Shown here: positions 7,041 to 19,978 of the stretch, one piece after another
Numbering within the stretch: position 1 is the first letter of the stretch
Layout: each line of letters begins with the position of its first letter
Source of the DNA: a virus
Reading direction: 5' to 3' (one strand)
Length of the DNA: 21,391 nt
Virus record (IMG/VR): IMGVR_UViG_3300027734_000349
Coordinates: 1-21,391 of that record
Translations under genes and position numbers: made by a program
Notes under the pieces: model-generated
Database searches by the model: none
What the model was told of the DNA's origin: nothing
The model's input: the letters and a program-made list of their open reading frames with translations, nothing else

Positions 7041-7204
7041 TTGAACACCGTTGCTACAAGCATGGACGCACCCACGACAAAGATCACCCACACGATCAAT
7101 CCTTTGATTTGCTTCACAAACTGCGCGTAATCGCTAGGCTCGGGCTCGTCGTACTCCCAGTCCTTTTGCTTGCGCTCCATGTATGCTTTGTCTGCTTCGT
7201 TCAT
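7037..7204 (-). CDS. Small single-pass membrane protein
   Basis: 55-residue protein with a charged N-terminal half (MNEADKAYMERKQKDWEYDE) and a C-terminal transmembrane helix, residues about 36-53 (GLIVWVIFVVGASMLVATV), ending in FK. This is a tail-anchored layout with the N-terminus probably cytoplasmic. AAGGAG precedes the ATG with a 9-base gap, and the ATG overlaps the upstream stop (ATGA). The frame is open upstream to 7261, but that lies inside the neighbouring gene. It may act at the inner membrane, for example in superinfection exclusion, but nothing in the sequence proves this. Confidence 0.65.
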   Translation of the reverse strand: MNEADKAYMERKQKDWEYDEPEPSDYAQFVKQIKGLIVWVIFVVGASMLVATVFK

Positions 7205-7428
7205 TTGCTGCGCTCCTTGAGCATTGCGTCTGCCATCTTGTATGAGGCTGCGGCAACCCAATTCCAGCCAGAACCGTGGATATCGTCTTCGTAATCAACT
7301 CCAGTAGCAAGCAGCCCCTGCATAGCCAATTCAGCAAAGTGGTCGCGCAGCGTCATGTCCTTTGCGTAGCCGCCTGTCTTGACCATCCAGTCGGTGTAGT
7401 CTTGTGCTATCTCTACGTTGTCTTTCAT
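7201..7428 (-). CDS. Small protein, unknown function
   Basis: 75-residue soluble-looking protein, MKDNVEIAQDYTDWMVKTGG onward, with a helical middle (DHFAELAMQGLLATGVDYED) and an Ala-rich C-terminal helix ending MLKERSK. The ATG has AAGGAG about 8 bases upstream and overlaps the previous stop by ATGA. It is one link of the coupled chain of small early genes. I do not recognise the family. Confidence 0.65.
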   Translation of the reverse strand: MKDNVEIAQDYTDWMVKTGGYAKDMTLRDHFAELAMQGLLATGVDYEDDIHGSGWNWVAAASYKMADAMLKERSK

Positions 7429-11498: not shown

Positions 11499-13399
11499 TG
11501 ACTCTCTGGGTTGACTTTGAGACCCGTAGCGCCTGCGACCTGAAGGTCGCGGGCGTTTACAACTACGCTCAGCACCCGGCTACCGAAGTGCTGTGTATGT
11601 CGTATGCTTTTGACGACGATGAGGTTGAGACATGGCTGCCTGGCCAGCCGTTCCCCGAGCAGGTCGCTACGCACAAAGATGACATCTACGCCCACAACGC
11701 CGCGTTTGAGCGCTTAATTTTTTGGTACGTCTTGCAGATCGACTTTGATCTGGAGCAGTTCGTCTGCACCGCAGCGCAGGCCCGCGCCAACTGTGCGCCT
11801 GGTTCGCTGGAGGACGTTGGCCGCTTTGCTGGCGCGTCCATGAAGAAAGACCACCGGGGCGCCCAACTGATCCGCAAGATGTCGATCCCGCCCTACGAGG
11901 AGTCGCCCGAGTTGACCGCCGAGATGGTGGCCTACTGCGAGCAGGACGTGCGCGCCATGCGGGCGATCAGCGAGGCTATGCGGCCCTTGTCTATCCAAGA
12001 GTTGCAGGACTACCATGTCAACGAGCGCATCAACGACCGAGGCGTGCTGGTGGATGTGGCCCTGTGCCAAGCCGCCGTCAAGTACGCCAGCGCTGAGTTG
12101 GCTGAAATTCAAGAGATCGTCGCCGAGGTGACCGGCGGCGCCATCGCTAGCGTGCGCTCCCCCAAGATGCGCGAGTGGGTGTTGGAGCGCGTTGGCCCCG
12201 AGGCCAAGAAGCTGATGGAGAAGGACGGCAAGTATTCCATTGACAAAACCGTCAGGGCAAACCTGCTGCTGATGGACAACCCTGATGAGGTTCCCCATGA
12301 CGTTCAAGAAGTCATCCAATGCGCCGACGACCTATGGGCGTCCTCGGTTGCGAAGTTCAGCCGCCTTGCGGGTCTGGCAGATGAAGAAGATCGACGAGTT
12401 CGCGGCGCTTTTGTGTTTGCGGGGGGTTCCGCCACAGGCCGTGCATCAAGTTATGGCGCTCAAGTCCACAACTTCACCCGAAAATGTGCTCAATCTCCTG
12501 AAGATGTGCGCTTGGCGATGGTACGCGGCCACGCAATCGTCCCCAGGTACGGAAAGCGCGTCACCGACGTCCTCAAAGGGATGCTCCGTCCTGCACTGAT
12601 ACCAGCCAAGGGTAAATACTTAGTCGTGGCCGATTGGTCGGCGATTGAGGCTAGGGTAAACCCTTGGTTGTCCGGCAGGGGCGACGAGAAGCTGGCCTTG
12701 TTTGCGTCCGGCGAGGACGTGTACAAAGTCAACGCTGCTGCGACGTTTGGTGTGTCTGTAGCGCGTGTCACCAAAGACCAGCGCCAGATCGGCAAGGTGC
12801 AGGAGTTGGCCTGCGGCTTCGCGGGCGGCGTGGGCGCCTTCGCTGCGATGGGCCGCGCCTACGGCATCCTGCTGCCGGAGTCGGACGCCCGCCGGATGGT
12901 AGACGCATGGCGTAGGGCAAACCCTTGGTCGGTGCCCTACTGGCAAGACCTAGAATCTGCCTACACCCGAGCGATGCGTAACAAGGGCAAAGAGTTCAGC
13001 GCCGGTCGGGTGACCTATATGTTTGACGGCCTGCACCTGTGGTACATCCTGCCATCGGGTCGCGTCCTTTGCTATCCCTACGCACGACTGGAAACCGAAG
13101 GTGTGACCTACGCCAAAGCCGCTTGGAAACCCGCCGCTGACGCCAAGGAGTGGCCACGCGCCCGCCTGTGGAAGGGGCTGGCCTGCGAGAACATCACCCA
13201 GGCCGTGGCCAATGACCTGCTGCGCCATTCGCTGCGCCAGCTTGACGACGTGGTGCTGCACGTCCACGACGAGATCGTGATCGAAACCAGTACGCCCAAC
13301 CCCGACGCCTTGCGCTCGGTCATGTGTACCCCGCCCGACTGGGCCAAGGGTTTACCCCTAGATGCCGAAGTATCAATCATGGAAAGGTATGGAAAATGA
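11498..13399 (+). CDS. Family A DNA polymerase with 3'-5' exonuclease
   Basis: 633-residue replicative polymerase. The N-terminal proofreading exonuclease shows Exo I as DFETR (D6, E8), Exo II around HNAAFE (66-71) and Exo III as Y146-x3-D150. The polymerase domain has motif A VVADWSAIEAR (376-386, D379), motif B beginning R429-x3-K433 in RQIGKVQELACGFAGG, and motif C LHVHDEIVIE (587-596, D591). There is no 5'-3' exonuclease domain, as is usual in phages. The length fits compact phage PolA enzymes. It overlaps both neighbours by a few bases (TGATG and ATGA), so polymerase, upstream candidate SSB and downstream primase-helicase should be made together. Exo II has Glu where Asp is more common in this family, which does not rule out activity. 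Confidence 0.93.
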   Translation: MTLWVDFETRSACDLKVAGVYNYAQHPATEVLCMSYAFDDDEVETWLPGQPFPEQVATHKDDIYAHNAAFERLIFWYVLQIDFDLEQFVCTAAQARANCAPGSLEDVGRFAGASMKKDHRGAQLIRKMSIPPYEESPELTAEMVAYCEQDVRAMRAISEAMRPLSIQELQDYHVNERINDRGVLVDVALCQAAVKYASAELAEIQEIVAEVTGGAIASVRSPKMREWVLERVGPEAKKLMEKDGKYSIDKTVRANLLLMDNPDEVPHDVQEVIQCADDLWASSVAKFSRLAGLADEEDRRVRGAFVFAGGSATGRASSYGAQVHNFTRKCAQSPEDVRLAMVRGHAIVPRYGKRVTDVLKGMLRPALIPAKGKYLVVADWSAIEARVNPWLSGRGDEKLALFASGEDVYKVNAAATFGVSVARVTKDQRQIGKVQELACGFAGGVGAFAAMGRAYGILLPESDARRMVDAWRRANPWSVPYWQDLESAYTRAMRNKGKEFSAGRVTYMFDGLHLWYILPSGRVLCYPYARLETEGVTYAKAAWKPAADAKEWPRARLWKGLACENITQAVANDLLRHSLRQLDDVVLHVHDEIVIETSTPNPDALRSVMCTPPDWAKGLPLDAEVSIMERYGK

Positions 13400-15678
13400 G
13401 TTTTTTAAAATATCTCGAAGACGTGGCGCCCGAGGGCGAGGTCATTTTGTTCGTGCGCCAAAAGCCCATACTGGCCGATGGCGAGTTGCAATACCATGCC
13501 GATGGCGCCATCAAATGCACTTGGCCCGCCTACCTGCCCAAGAGATGGAAGCCCGACCAGGCGTGGTACGCCAATACCGGCTGCTTCATTATCGACCGAT
13601 TCGACCAAGGCCGCGCCTCTGCCCGCGCTGACAACTGCGAGCGAGTCGCCTTTTTGGTGCTGGACGACGTGGGCACCAAGGCCAAAGAGCCACCGATCGC
13701 CCCGACGTGGATCATGGAGACCAGCCCCAATAACTACCAGTACGGCTACACTTTCGCGCTGGACGACCAACCGATGAAGGCCGACTTCAGCGCCGCCATC
13801 GTGGCCATCGCCGAGGCCGGCTACACCGACGGCGGGGCCATCAACCCCGTGCGCAACTTCCGACTGCCCGGCTCGGTCAACCTCAAACCAGGCCGCGAGG
13901 ACTTTGCTTCCCGCCTTGTTCAGTTCCATCCCGAGCGCGAGTTCTCCCTGCCTCAGATATGCAAGGCGCTGGGCGTGACGCCCAACCCTGCCGACACCGC
14001 CACAGTGCGCCCCATACGCCTCACAGACGACGGCGGCGACGATGTGCTGGCGTGGGCTGCTGCGCGTGGCGACCTGCTGGAGAAGGGCAATTCAAGCGGC
14101 TGGTGGGGCGTGGTCTGCCCCAATCATGGTGAGCATTCAGACGGCAACCCGATGGGCCGATACAACCCCGTGAGCCGCGCCTACTGCTGCCTGCACGAGC
14201 ATTGCTCCGAGTTGGACAGCGTGGCCTACCTTGCGTGGGTTGAGGAGCAGGGCGGGCCAAAGCGCGCCCACGGCCTGCGCGACGAGTTGCTGGCCGCCGT
14301 GATGGAAAACACCCTTGGCAAGCTAACCCCGACAGTTGAGTACCCCGACGAGGCCGCTGCGGTCATTGCCGAGGTGGAGCGGCGCGAGTTGGGCCGTGTG
14401 GAGATGAGCGGCTGGTTTGAGCGGTTTGCGTATATCCAAGACGACGACTCCTATTTTGATATGCAAGACCGACGCGAACTGATGCGCAAGACCTTCAACG
14501 CCATGTTCAGGCATATCAGTTGCGTGTCCCGCCACGGCAAACACCCCAAGATCGAGGCGTCTTTTGCTTTTGACGAACACCGCCAGGACAAGGGCGCCAG
14601 GGCGCTGGTCGGCATCACTTACGCGGCGGGCGAGACTGTGCTTGTGTCGCGTGAGGGGTTGGTGTACGGCAACCGCTGGCGCGATGCCCGCCCGGCGCCC
14701 GTGGCCGGTGACGCGACGCCGTGGCTGCGCCATGTCGAGCGCATGGTGCCGATTGACTTCGAGCGCGAACACCTGCTAAACGTCTTGGCCCATAAAGTGC
14801 AGTTCCCCAGCCACAAGATCAACCATGCCGTCTTAATGGGCGGCAACCACGGCTCGGGCAAAGACACCCTCTTTGCGCCGTTCTTTTGGGCCATAGGCGG
14901 CAAGGCTAAACTCAATTGTTCGCTGGTCAAGAATGAAGACCTGACCAGTCAGTGGGGCTATGCGCTTGAATGCGAGGTGATGGAAATTCAAGAACTGCGC
15001 CAGTCAGAGGCCAAAGACCGCCGCGCCTTGGAGAACATCCTAAAGCCCATCATCGCCGCGCCCCCGGAGTTGCTGACAGTCAATCGCAAGGGCCTGCACC
15101 CCTACCAGGCGCTGAACCGCGTGTTCGTGGTCGCGTTCTCCAATGAGCGCGTGGCGATTAGTTTGCCCTCAGAGGATCGCCGCTGGTTTGTCTTATGGTC
15201 AGATGCGACCAAGATGCCCGAAGCAGACGCGCTGCGGATGTGGAACTGGTACACGATGCGTAGCGGGTTCGAGGCGGTCGCGCATTACCTGCACACCAGA
15301 GACGTTTCGGCCTTCAACCCTAACGCTACGCCCCCATTCACAGAGGCCAAAGCGATCATGGTCGAACATGGGATGAGCGGAGCAGAGAGCTTCCTAGTTA
15401 ACCTGATCCGCTCCAGGTCGCGGGCGTTCAGCGCTGGCGTGGTCGGCGCGCCCTTCTACGCGCTGTGCGATGAATTGCAGTTATACGCCCCCCAAGGCGT
15501 GCGCATTGTGCCTGCCGCGCTGCTGCACGCGCTCAAAGAGGCCGGATGGCATGATATGGGCCGCCTAGCGTCCCGCGAGTACCAGACCAAAAAGCATATA
15601 TTCTGCGCGCCTGAACTGGCGCATAGCACCCGCTCAGAACTGCGCAGGGCCATAGAAAAAGCCCCCGAAGGGGCTTAA
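13396..15678 (+). CDS. Primase-helicase: primase-like N-terminus, zinc motif, DUF5906/VapE-type ATPase
   Basis: 760-residue multidomain protein. Residues about 85-165 look like an archaeo-eukaryotic-type primase-polymerase: LVLDDVGTK (88-95) supplies acidic metal ligands and RNFRLPGSVNLK (153-164) is a typical later motif. A likely zinc site follows, CPNHGEHS (241-248) plus CCLHEHC (264-270). The C-terminal half is a D5/VapE-like superfamily 3 helicase: Walker A GGNHGSGKDT (482-491), Walker B-like VMEIQEL (528-534), a SNER sensor (582-585) and DRRW with candidate arginine fingers (594-597). The ATG at 13396 overlaps the polymerase stop (ATGA); the same frame is open back to 13324 inside the polymerase gene, which is not a likely start. 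It should prime and unwind DNA for the polymerase. Its last codons form the stem of a leftward terminator. Confidence 0.88.
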   Translation: MSFLKYLEDVAPEGEVILFVRQKPILADGELQYHADGAIKCTWPAYLPKRWKPDQAWYANTGCFIIDRFDQGRASARADNCERVAFLVLDDVGTKAKEPPIAPTWIMETSPNNYQYGYTFALDDQPMKADFSAAIVAIAEAGYTDGGAINPVRNFRLPGSVNLKPGREDFASRLVQFHPEREFSLPQICKALGVTPNPADTATVRPIRLTDDGGDDVLAWAAARGDLLEKGNSSGWWGVVCPNHGEHSDGNPMGRYNPVSRAYCCLHEHCSELDSVAYLAWVEEQGGPKRAHGLRDELLAAVMENTLGKLTPTVEYPDEAAAVIAEVERRELGRVEMSGWFERFAYIQDDDSYFDMQDRRELMRKTFNAMFRHISCVSRHGKHPKIEASFAFDEHRQDKGARALVGITYAAGETVLVSREGLVYGNRWRDARPAPVAGDATPWLRHVERMVPIDFEREHLLNVLAHKVQFPSHKINHAVLMGGNHGSGKDTLFAPFFWAIGGKAKLNCSLVKNEDLTSQWGYALECEVMEIQELRQSEAKDRRALENILKPIIAAPPELLTVNRKGLHPYQALNRVFVVAFSNERVAISLPSEDRRWFVLWSDATKMPEADALRMWNWYTMRSGFEAVAHYLHTRDVSAFNPNATPPFTEAKAIMVEHGMSGAESFLVNLIRSRSRAFSAGVVGAPFYALCDELQLYAPQGVRIVPAALLHALKEAGWHDMGRLASREYQTKKHIFCAPELAHSTRSELRRAIEKAPEGA
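15656..15678 (-). terminator. Intrinsic terminator for leftward transcription
   Basis: Read on the - strand, AAGCCCC-TTCG-GGGGCTT forms a 7-bp stem with a stable UUCG loop followed directly by a run of T (15660-15656). This is a strong rho-independent terminator. On the + strand the same hairpin is followed only by AATC, so termination of rightward transcripts would be weak. It lies inside the 3' end of the primase-helicase gene. Confidence 0.8.
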
Positions 15679-15737
15679 TCAAGGTCTAGCAGGATCGCAA
15701 GAATAGCGGCGACCAGCGCCGCTAGGACTATCAGCAC
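15675..15737 (-). CDS. Possible 20-residue membrane peptide
   Basis: A GTG at 15737 opens a 20-residue frame, M-LIVLAALVAAILAILLDLD, which is almost entirely a transmembrane helix with an acidic end. The GTG overlaps the stop of the previous gene by a few bases, which would allow coupled reinitiation, but no Shine-Dalgarno sequence is seen. In the same frame, codons upstream of the GTG read ARRRKARAR, a positive flank typical of a membrane helix, yet there is no start codon there. It could therefore be a frameshift extension of the upstream protein or chance. Its stop falls at the terminator stem. Confidence 0.3.
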   Translation of the reverse strand: MLIVLAALVAAILAILLDLD

Positions 15738-15886
15738 TCTAGCGCGCGCCTTGCGGCGGCGCGCGTCTCCTCATTGTCGTCGTCCAACAAGGCGCGCAGT
15801 ACGTCCGATAAATGGTCAATGCGCGCCGCGTAGTAGCGCGTGGCGGTTGCCAAGGCGTCTAACGCCAGTTTCTCATCGTCGCTCAT
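15731..15886 (-). CDS. Small acidic helical protein, unknown function
   Basis: 51-residue protein (MSDDEKLALDALATATRYYA, then RIDHLSDVLRALLDDDNEE and an Ala/Arg-rich end). It is probably one helical hairpin with an acidic middle. The ATG overlaps the upstream stop as ATGA. It is below common ORF length limits but is a natural link in this coupled chain. No family is recognised. Confidence 0.55.
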   Translation of the reverse strand: MSDDEKLALDALATATRYYAARIDHLSDVLRALLDDDNEETRAAARRALEC

Positions 15887-17500: not shown

Positions 17501-17662
17501 TGGTGTCAATTTATAGAATTGTATGCATTGGATATTTTGTGGGTAGTGGTTGGCGGTTTGGTTGGTAGCAAGTTGGCTATGGTGGTTTTGATGCGCATCA
17601 TTGGGGAAATGGGGCTTATTGGCTATATTGGCTGTTTGATTTGAATAAACAATCACAAATAG

Positions 17663-17685
17663 TATATTTCATAATGTGAAATGTA
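17663..17685. promoter_or_regulatory. Operator-like dyad
   Basis: ATTTCA (17666-17671) and TGAAAT (17677-17682) form a perfect inverted repeat around TAATG; with one mismatch the arms extend to 9 bp (17663-17671 and 17677-17685). On the + strand it overlaps a TATATT (17663-17668) lying 16 bp after TTGAAT (17641-17646), a weak promoter. It fits the size and form of a phage repressor site, but no repressor gene is present in this window. Confidence 0.4.
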
Positions 17686-17841
17686 TGCTGAGTAGCGTAG
17701 CGATTTAAATTGGCTGTCTAAACCGCCAACATAGCCTACATCGCCGCCAGCCCCATGATCCACGCAAAACGCTGCGCGCCACGCTGGCGCATGGTGTTGG
17801 CCATGTTGGCTATTTGGTTTGCATGGCCAACACTGCCAACA

Positions 17842-17865
17842 CCTGCCAGCCTTGACCTGCCAGCC
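17842..17865. repeat. 11-bp direct repeat
   Basis: ACCTGCCAGCC occurs at 17842-17852 and again at 17855-17865, separated by two bases. It adjoins the large TTGGC/GCCAA inverted repeat and adds to the repeat character of this non-coding region. Confidence 0.6.
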
Positions 17866-18006
17866 CCAAGCCCGTAACCCAATGGTGTTGGCACTGCCAA
17901 CATAGCCAACACCTACCGCCCAGGTAATCCATTGCCATTTTGCTTAGGATTTTGGCTGAGGGGGGAGGGGGTAGGGCCGAGCGGAAGGGCCAGCGTTGAC
18001 GGAGGG

Positions 18007-18069: not shown

Positions 18070-18480
18070 ATGTTCAAATCACTGCCGCTTACAGTTCGCC
18101 ATGTCAAGGCCACTGAATCGCGCCTGCAAGCAATTTACGACGCCGGTAAGCTGGGGCTCAAGGGCGACACACTGGCGCTTGCTTCTGGGATGCGACCTGA
18201 TGAGTACCACCATTTGTGCCAATTTGACCCACTGGCCAAAATGGCCGCAGACAAGGGCAAAGCAGACGGCGAACGCGAGATGGCCCAGATACTGCGCAAG
18301 GCAGCGCTAGAAGGCGACGCCAAGGCGGCGCTTGAAGTCCTCAAGCACCAACACGGCTGGGTGGCCAAGCAGTCCATCTCGGTGGACATCGACCAGCGCA
18401 TTTCTATCACCCAGGCGCTTCAAGAAGCCGAGTTGCGCGTAATTGAGGTTGTCGATGCAGTCCACCAGATACAGCGCTGA
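18070..18480 (+). CDS. Terminase small subunit (TerS)
   Basis: 136-residue protein directly upstream of the large terminase, the usual place for TerS. The N-terminal part (about 10-55) is helical with an HTH-like stretch (AIYDAGKLGLKGDTLALASG, then MRPDEYHHLCQ) that could bind packaging-site DNA. The C-terminal half, with KADGEREMAQILRKAALEGD and ALEVLKHQHGW, is typical of phage TerS oligomerisation and TerL-binding regions. The start at 18070 is chosen for AAGGAG 5 bases upstream; the same frame is open back to 17932, but that part runs through the promoter. It would form a ring that recognises phage DNA and stimulates the packaging ATPase. Confidence 0.8.
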   Translation: MFKSLPLTVRHVKATESRLQAIYDAGKLGLKGDTLALASGMRPDEYHHLCQFDPLAKMAADKGKADGEREMAQILRKAALEGDAKAALEVLKHQHGWVAKQSISVDIDQRISITQALQEAELRVIEVVDAVHQIQR

Positions 18481-19978
18481 AGACGAACAGGAACTGATGG
18501 CGCGTCTGTGGACGCCGCGCATCAAGGACAGCCCACTGAATTTTGTGATGCTGGTGTTCCCGTGGGGCGTCAAGGGCACGCCGCTGGAACACTTTAAGGG
18601 ACCGCGCAAGTGGCAGCGCGAGGTGCTGCAAGACCTCGCCGACCACATCCAAGAAAACAAGGGGCTGCTGGACTTCAACGTGCTGCAAGAGGCGATCTCG
18701 TCGGGGCGCGGTATTGGTAAGTCGGCCTTGGTCAGTTGGGTCACGATCTGGATGCTGTCCACCCGCATCGGGTCATCGACCATCATCTCGGCCAACTCGG
18801 AAAGCCAGCTAAGATCAATTACCTGGGCCGAGATCACCAAGTGGCTGGCGATGTCGCTCAACTCGCACTGGTTCGAGGTCAGCGCCACTAGGCTGATGCC
18901 CGCTAAATGGCTGACTGAACTGGTCGAGCGTGATCTCAAGAAGGGCACGCGCTACTGGGGCGTCGAGGGTCGGCTGTGGTCGGAAGAGAACCCAGACGCC
19001 TACGCCGGGGTGCATAACTACGACGGGGTGCTGGTGATCTTCGACGAGGCGTCGGGCATCGCCGACGCGATCTGGGCGGTAACCAGCGGGTTCTTCACGG
19101 AAAACACGCCCAACAGGTTCTGGCTGGCGTTCTCCAATCCGCGCCGCAACACGGGGTACTTCTACGAGGCGTTTAACTCCAAGCGGGAGTTCTGGAAAAC
19201 CAAGGTGGTGGACGCCCGCACGGTCGAGGGCACCGACAAGCAGGTCTACGAGCGGATCATCCAGGAGTACGGCAGCGACAGCAGTCAGGCGCACGTTGAG
19301 GTCTACGGTATGTTCCCCAGCGCCGGGGACGACCAGTTCATTCCAGCGGACGTGGTGGACGAGGCCATGAAGCGGGAGCGGTACAAAGACCTGTCGGCGC
19401 CCATCATCATCGGGGTCGATCCGGCGCGCTACGGCGCCGACGCCACGGTCATCGCCGTGCGCCAAGGGCGGGACATCGTGCATATAGCGCGGCATCGGGG
19501 CGACGACACTATGACGGTAGTCGGGCACGTCATTGAGGCCATAGAGGAGTACAAGCCGACGCTGGTGGTGATCGACGAGGGCGGCTTGGGCGCTGGGATC
19601 GTGGACAGGCTCAAGGAGCAGCGGTACAAAATCAAGGGTATAAACTTTGGAAACAAGGCGAAAAACCCGATAATGTACGGAAATATGCGCGCCCAGATGT
19701 GGGGTGAGATGCGGGAGTGGCTGAAATCTGCTAGTATTCCGACCGACAGGTTCTTGAAGACGGACTTGATTTCGCCTAAGATGAAGCCTGATTCACGTGG
19801 AACAATTTTCTTGGAGAGCAAGAAAGATATGAAAGCGCGGGGGCTTGCATCACCAGACGCAGCGGACGCAATTTGCGTGACGTTTGCTTTTCCCGTGGCC
19901 CACCGCGAGTATACTGAGCCGACACGCCGCGTCAACTCCCAAGGCAGCGCGGTACATAATTCATGGATGGGGTCTTAA
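18455..19978 (+). CDS. Terminase large subunit (TerL)
   Basis: 507-residue packaging motor. The ATPase domain has Walker A GRGIGKS (84-90) and Walker B VLVIFDE (192-198), with the coupling motif probably near AFSNP (225-229). The C-terminal RNase H-like nuclease shows acidic residues D322 in GVDPARYGAD, D374 in LVVIDEGGLG, and D471 in SPDAADAI, as expected for headful or cos cutting. I chose the ATG at 18455, which has GAGG 6 bases upstream; a TTG at 18443 is less likely. It overlaps TerS by 26 bases. It would bind the portal, translocate DNA with ATP and cut the concatemer. Confidence 0.95.
   Translation: MQSTRYSAEDEQELMARLWTPRIKDSPLNFVMLVFPWGVKGTPLEHFKGPRKWQREVLQDLADHIQENKGLLDFNVLQEAISSGRGIGKSALVSWVTIWMLSTRIGSSTIISANSESQLRSITWAEITKWLAMSLNSHWFEVSATRLMPAKWLTELVERDLKKGTRYWGVEGRLWSEENPDAYAGVHNYDGVLVIFDEASGIADAIWAVTSGFFTENTPNRFWLAFSNPRRNTGYFYEAFNSKREFWKTKVVDARTVEGTDKQVYERIIQEYGSDSSQAHVEVYGMFPSAGDDQFIPADVVDEAMKRERYKDLSAPIIIGVDPARYGADATVIAVRQGRDIVHIARHRGDDTMTVVGHVIEAIEEYKPTLVVIDEGGLGAGIVDRLKEQRYKIKGINFGNKAKNPIMYGNMRAQMWGEMREWLKSASIPTDRFLKTDLISPKMKPDSRGTIFLESKKDMKARGLASPDAADAICVTFAFPVAHREYTEPTRRVNSQGSAVHNSWMGS

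Follow-up and report, generated by a model that had tools for sequence, protein, structure and literature searches.

A cluster of short repeats upstream of the terminase genes of a lake phage very probably serves as an iteron-type replication origin that the phage's own primase-helicase would recognise through its wing. Comparison of sequences from hundreds of related phages indicates that the repeat word and the tip of the primase have changed together repeatedly, and the small terminase (TerS) shows no such covariation.

The window and its genes

The window analysed is the entire IMG/VR record, a linear fragment of 21,391 bases. It carries genes for DNA polymerase A, a PD-(D/E)XK nuclease (DUF2800 family), an SNF2-like helicase, a VirE/DUF5906-type primase and the large terminase. 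The primase-helicase, the putative initiator that would read the array, is a protein of 760 aa encoded on the plus strand at 13396-15678 (phrog_1156 DNA primase, 4e-19; PF19263, 40.8 bits, over the cut-off). The gene in the terS position (18070-18480, plus strand, 136 aa) has no family match, and is followed by the large terminase gene (18455-19978, plus strand; phrog_2 and phrog_5902; the listed ORF starts at TTG 18443). The small minus-strand genes adjoining the array gave no DNA-binding family in family searches.

The nearest named terminases belong to metagenomic podoviruses of 37-39 kb with P22-like head genes. No cultured close relative was found, the best named primase match being metagenomic at 49%. 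Primase relatives in bacterial assemblies are in metagenome bins only, the closest in a Rhodoferax bin (86%). The host is likely to be a freshwater betaproteobacterium, with the proviso that bins can contain stray phage contigs.

The repeat array

The array occupies 17548-17959, on both strands, within the non-coding DNA that separates a leftward gene (start 17428) from the terS-position gene (start 18070). An earlier note on this DNA had listed 14 copies of TTGGC/GCCAA within 17550-17956, four pairs of copies spaced 9 bp apart (17619/17628, 17797/17806, 17826/17835 and 17896/17905) and two large inverted repeats. All of these were located, the inverted repeats being 17786-17810/17896-17920 (25 nt, 84%) and 17793-17813/17823-17843 (21 nt, 86%). 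The array is better described as about 15 copies of a degenerate 10-nt unit, ATAGCCAACA and its variants, on either strand and in head-to-tail pairs 9 bp apart. There are five such tandem pairs, the fifth (17722/17731) with one mismatch.

From left to right, a minus-strand tandem pair (17617-17635) is followed by an AT-rich stretch at 17640-17700, a candidate unwinding element within the large gap that separates the left half of the array from the right half (83% AT in 17640-17669), and then by a plus-strand pair ACCGCCAACATAGCCTACA of opposite orientation (17722-17740), both pairs with units 9 bp apart. In the core palindrome (17795-17841), a minus-strand pair (17795-17813) faces a plus-strand pair (17823-17841), with 19 bp separating the inner unit starts; this is the most frequent head-to-head geometry among relatives. 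A third inverted cluster (17886-17911) consists of a minus-strand unit (17886-17895) and a plus-strand tandem pair (17893-17911).

The array is real: none of 2000 dinucleotide shuffles of the region reached 14 copies of TTGGC/GCCAA (mean 3.8, maximum 11), and eight of the 12 copies of the 7-mer TGTTGGC/GCCAACA in the window are in the array region (shuffle mean 0.3, maximum 3). Over the whole window, however, the pentamer count alone is weak evidence, because with free choice of 5-mer and place the densest 405 bp of a shuffled window contains 9-16 copies, and CGCGC reaches 19 copies in the real window. This cluster, denser than that of TTGGC, spans about 400 bp (15446-15850), from the last part of the primase gene into the sequence that follows.

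The earlier note had held that no known element explains the array. This stands in so far as no named family matched in the libraries searched, but not for the general type, since an iteron array fits: the repeats are short, of fixed spacing and clustered in a non-coding region, with an AT-rich element adjacent. The GC skew, which the note had proposed as a check, shows no clear switch at the array. There is also no exact match to the DnaA box TTWTNCACA in the window; a self-sufficient initiator would need no DnaA box.

The array in relatives

Viral contigs were scanned with the DNA pattern TGTTGGCNATGTTGGCTA, blind to genes. Most of the 75 matches are relatives of the phage, with terL 66-99% identical to that of the window and the array 400-1500 bp upstream of terL. 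The position upstream of terS, which the earlier note had expected relatives to share if the array was meaningful, is thus common to the window phage and its relatives. Elsewhere in this terminase clade, relatives carry other words at that place, with the same geometry of 9-bp tandem and inverted pairs. The alternative words are GCCGACA, GTCCACA, GCCCACA, GCCTACA, GACTACA, GACCCAA, GCACACA and ACTAACA, and GACYCAC at 10-bp spacing. In 104 non-identical upstream regions, self-match at lag 9 exceeds that at all other lags, irrespective of word. One group, with the wing GLLKSRA, uses lag 10 (L117, L123, L128, L131, L133, L135, L146 and L258), so that the repeat period itself varies with the wing. 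Each near-complete genome has a single array locus. Among 214 loci of relatives, 86% have a largest inter-site gap whose AT content exceeds that of random stretches. Judged from these sequences, it is the comparative evidence, rather than the TTGGC counts, that makes the array extraordinary.

Two other kinds of repeat were seen nearby in relatives. A cluster of CACTAAC/GTTAGTG with irregular spacing of 23-33 bp is found in 62 of 232 distinct loci (for example L093, L108, L088 and L005), mostly between the 9-bp array and terS and with several wing classes, and is absent from the window; it is possibly a site for TerS or a repressor. Short GC-rich tandem repeats (GCAGGCC/GCCTGCC, in 8-bp steps) lie beside the array upstream of terS in L068, L067, L056 and L074, and run into the terS frame in some relatives.

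Covariation of the repeat word with the primase wing

Primases from different clades served as queries in four additional scans, which yielded 379 primases together with the DNA downstream of them. The word at each locus was called by a motif finder ignorant of the protein, and then compared with the wing peptide. The wing GRLASR..QTKKH goes with ATAGCCAACA, the unit of the window, GRLSSREFQ with GCCGACA, GRLKSR..D[TS]KKH with ATTGTCCACA, GRLKSREFDTRKH with ATTGCCCACA, GRLKSSLHD with ATTGTCCATA, GRVASGDFQSKKH with ATGACCCAAA, GLLKSRAHTTKKH with ATGACYCACA at 10-bp spacing, GLIHSRDFNSKKH with ATGGCACACA, GRLTSRE.P with ATTGACTACA and GRLMSREFS with ATGACTAACA. Word calling is noisy, with called words differing in 81 of 736 identical-wing pairs, and some calls are wrong or mixed (the GLIHSR and GRVASR groups). 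Because the motif finder is seeded with a lag of 9 or 10 and its register template is biased towards A at X8 and X10, these two positions and the period are not counted among its findings. The dominance of lag 9, the location of the array in relatives and counts of fixed words are independent of it.

With fixed-word counts, the relation of wing class to word is nearly diagonal. GCCAACA occurs 8.8 times per locus with GRLASR-type wings versus 0.4 with KSR-type wings, GTCCACA 7.1 times with KSR-type and 0.1 with GRLASR-type wings, and GACCCAA 10.8 times with the GRVASGD wing and at most 0.2 elsewhere. The last part of the primase differs between word groups, whereas TerS hardly differs.

By mutual information, the top columns among the 760 of the primase are Q730 for X5, A725 for X6 and X7, and R727 for X9, where R pairs with C, G with A and S with T. 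Raw mutual information was distrusted because shared ancestry inflates the score, and clade-restricted shuffles and tree-based counting were added. When label shuffles are confined to clades, the same columns still lead. On a tree of primase residues 1-700 there are 45 word changes, and the five best of 629 variable columns (725, 730, 724, 723 and 727; p 1.4e-10 to 4.4e-6) are all within 723-730 at the wing. A change in 724-730 falls on 32 of the 45 word-change branches, where about 12 are expected (45 x 88/334). Among primase pairs that are 80-95% identical elsewhere, the columns that best separate unlike-word from like-word pairs are 725, 730, 728, 724, 727 and 721. Nearest neighbours predict the word at 0.70 by the wing but at 0.24 by TerS; with relatives of more than 75% identity excluded, the values are 0.52 for the wing, 0.15 for the rest of the primase and 0.18 for TerS. 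The covariation recurs in clades whose primases share only about 60-70% identity. A phage replication initiator was among the readers that the earlier note had suggested, and this residue-to-base covariation argues strongly for the primase-helicase in that role.

Recent concerted switches

In four pairs of relatives (L436/L434, L381/L376, L313/L022 and L194/L189), primase residues 1-715 are 97-99% identical and wing and word have switched in concert. L436 and L434 are 98.7% identical in this part, with wings KSREYDA and NTREHAT; L436 has eight copies of GTCCACA, while L434 has three of GCCTACA and none of GTCCACA. In L313 and L022, with 97% identical primases, ten copies of GTCCACA stand against 11 of GCCAACA. 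In the switched pairs, terL and most of the primase are conserved, but the DNA from the end of the primase to terL is mosaic. Switching by exchange of a segment from wing to array is therefore possible, as is switching by point change.

Predicted structure of the primase C-terminal domain and a model for the putative origin

The last 100 residues of the primase are predicted with high confidence by AlphaFold2 to form a winged helix (pLDDT 92.8, pTM 0.82), with the order H-E-H-H-E-wing-E-H. The modelled domain spans residues 657-756 (15364-15663, plus strand), and its wing loop residues 725-732 (ASREYQTK; 15568-15591, plus strand). The covarying residues, 723-730, map to the end of strand 2 and the wing loop of the model, whereas residues of the usual recognition helix (PAALLHALKEAGW) are nearly invariant. 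Foldseek found no significant structural match (best E 0.2); the non-significant matches include the winged-helix proteins PadR, HSF1 and RFX5 (8zjr, E 0.38). Likewise, no winged-helix homologue was named at significant E in Pfam or PDB, and the domain is assigned as a winged helix by the topology of the model only. From the primase/DUF5906 matches and this prediction, the protein may combine a primase and a winged helix in one chain.

In the proposed mechanism, the C-terminal winged-helix domain of the primase-helicase would bind the 9-bp-spaced units, and the tip of the beta-wing, residues 723-730, would read the variable bases. The facing unit pairs would load helicase-primase assemblies to the left and right of the AT-rich stretch; the loaded assemblies would open this stretch, and then unwind and prime. 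The array, its conserved place and geometry, and its covariation with the wing and not with TerS are observed, whereas physical binding, firing of the origin and this order of loading are inferred.

Alternative readings of the array

The array might instead be an operator without origin function, where the divergent promoters are controlled by the winged helix of the primase or by a linked regulator. The genes on its two sides are indeed transcribed divergently, and the primase wing could bind an operator just as it would an origin. There are also two weak sigma-70-like matches within the AT-rich gap, although promoter matches (three found versus 1.3 expected) are close to the shuffle expectation. 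A primase-helicase would, however, be an unusual regulator, and inverted iterons on both sides of an AT-rich element are a typical feature of origins. An exclusively regulatory array is therefore improbable; a regulatory side role is possible.

The earlier note had also considered a cos/pac packaging site bound by TerS. Its position next to the terS-position gene, in relatives as in the window, is compatible with this, and a pac site would be needed if a P22-like head is filled by headful packaging. Specificity at such a site should follow TerS, but TerS is 100% identical in L323 and L258, and in L282 and L285, which have different words and even different repeat periods. The recently switched pairs likewise keep the terL flank and differ in the array. 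With the low predictive value of TerS given above, these cases contradict the packaging reading as regards word specificity; it is very unlikely, and TerS was rejected as the reader of the array.

That the array is a selfish or slippage-generated repeat of a hairpin family, homogenised by recombination and with no dedicated reader, is scarcely credible: 17790-17846 would form a stable single-strand hairpin (fold z = -3.95) and some relatives have local tandem expansions (for example L068, L067 and L085), but copies are confined to one place per genome, and in several clades they covary, at the level of single residues, with a protein domain some 2 kb or more distant.

A phage-encoded DnaA domain IV was tested as a reader because some words equal TTGTCCACA and the annotation of the relative MW202483 includes a DnaA helix-turn-helix. 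It was ruled out, as PF08299 is absent from 49 of 50 records tested, the window among them. MW202483 (L160), a distant relative, encodes a small Bac_DnaA_C protein (7083-7379, 64 bits) that is absent from the other records tested.

Comparison with known initiators

The replication origin proposed here would work like those of the P4 alpha, SaPI Rep, SCC Cch2 and PLE RepA initiators, a likeness claimed for function and not for homology. According to PMC4234260 (citing Ziegelin and Lanka 1995 and Yeo et al. 2002), P4 alpha joins primase, helicase and a winged-helix domain that binds origin repeats in one polypeptide, as may also be the case for the window protein. However, the P4 primase is of the bacterial (Toprim) type, whereas the window protein weakly resembles RepB/VirE-type primases, and a changing wing-based code is not described for P4 alpha in the text consulted. 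The P4 origin-binding domain gave no significant sequence or fold match to the window domain in searches of PDB sequences and folds. SaPI Rep and SCC Cch2 are initiator helicases that recognise short iterons downstream of their own gene, SaPI Rep via its C-terminal domain (PMC7581432). In the window, by contrast, the primase would be fused to the helicase, and the array is found next to terS, a few kb downstream, with 9-bp tandem pairs in palindromes.

In PLE RepA of Vibrio cholerae satellites, the DNA-binding domain and the origin likewise covary and have undergone swaps; the pressure proposed for this is a phage nuclease directed at the origin. The PLE case involves an N-terminal RepA_N domain, a few satellites and three iterons of about 30 bp, while the present one involves a predicted C-terminal winged helix, hundreds of phage contigs and residue-by-base resolution. 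In RFX1 and TcpK, the wing and not the recognition helix contacts bases (PMC6137059, PMC4333399), and the TcpK boxes in the pCW3 oriT are tandem nine-nucleotide repeats; these are transcription and conjugation proteins rather than initiators, and no homology to the window domain is claimed. Bacterial DnaA boxes are also 9-mers ending in CACA, and the TTGTCCACA of some relatives is near a DnaA box, but an array word that changes with the primase wing is inexplicable by host DnaA. What appears to be new here is the 9-bp palindromic architecture, the wing-based specificity and a natural residue-to-base code for the putative binding.

Implications

Studies of how initiators recognise their origins usually deal with a single replicon. 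Several hundred natural pairs of wing and word, among them primases that are 97-99% identical outside the wing but have different words, would let a recognition code be read and tested residue by residue, and would permit a direct test of why phages change their origin specificity (satellites, nucleases or co-infection). A putative function is assigned to the C-terminal domain of a VirE/DUF5906-type phage primase, and origins may be located in uncultured phages by sequence alone. It is reasonably probable that this large group of uncultured freshwater podoviruses keeps replacing its own origin specificity, with a handful of wing residues and all iterons changing in concert among some ten or more origin "languages", perhaps in escape from origin parasites, origin-directed nucleases or cross-talk in co-infection, and that the variants make up a readable wing-to-base code.
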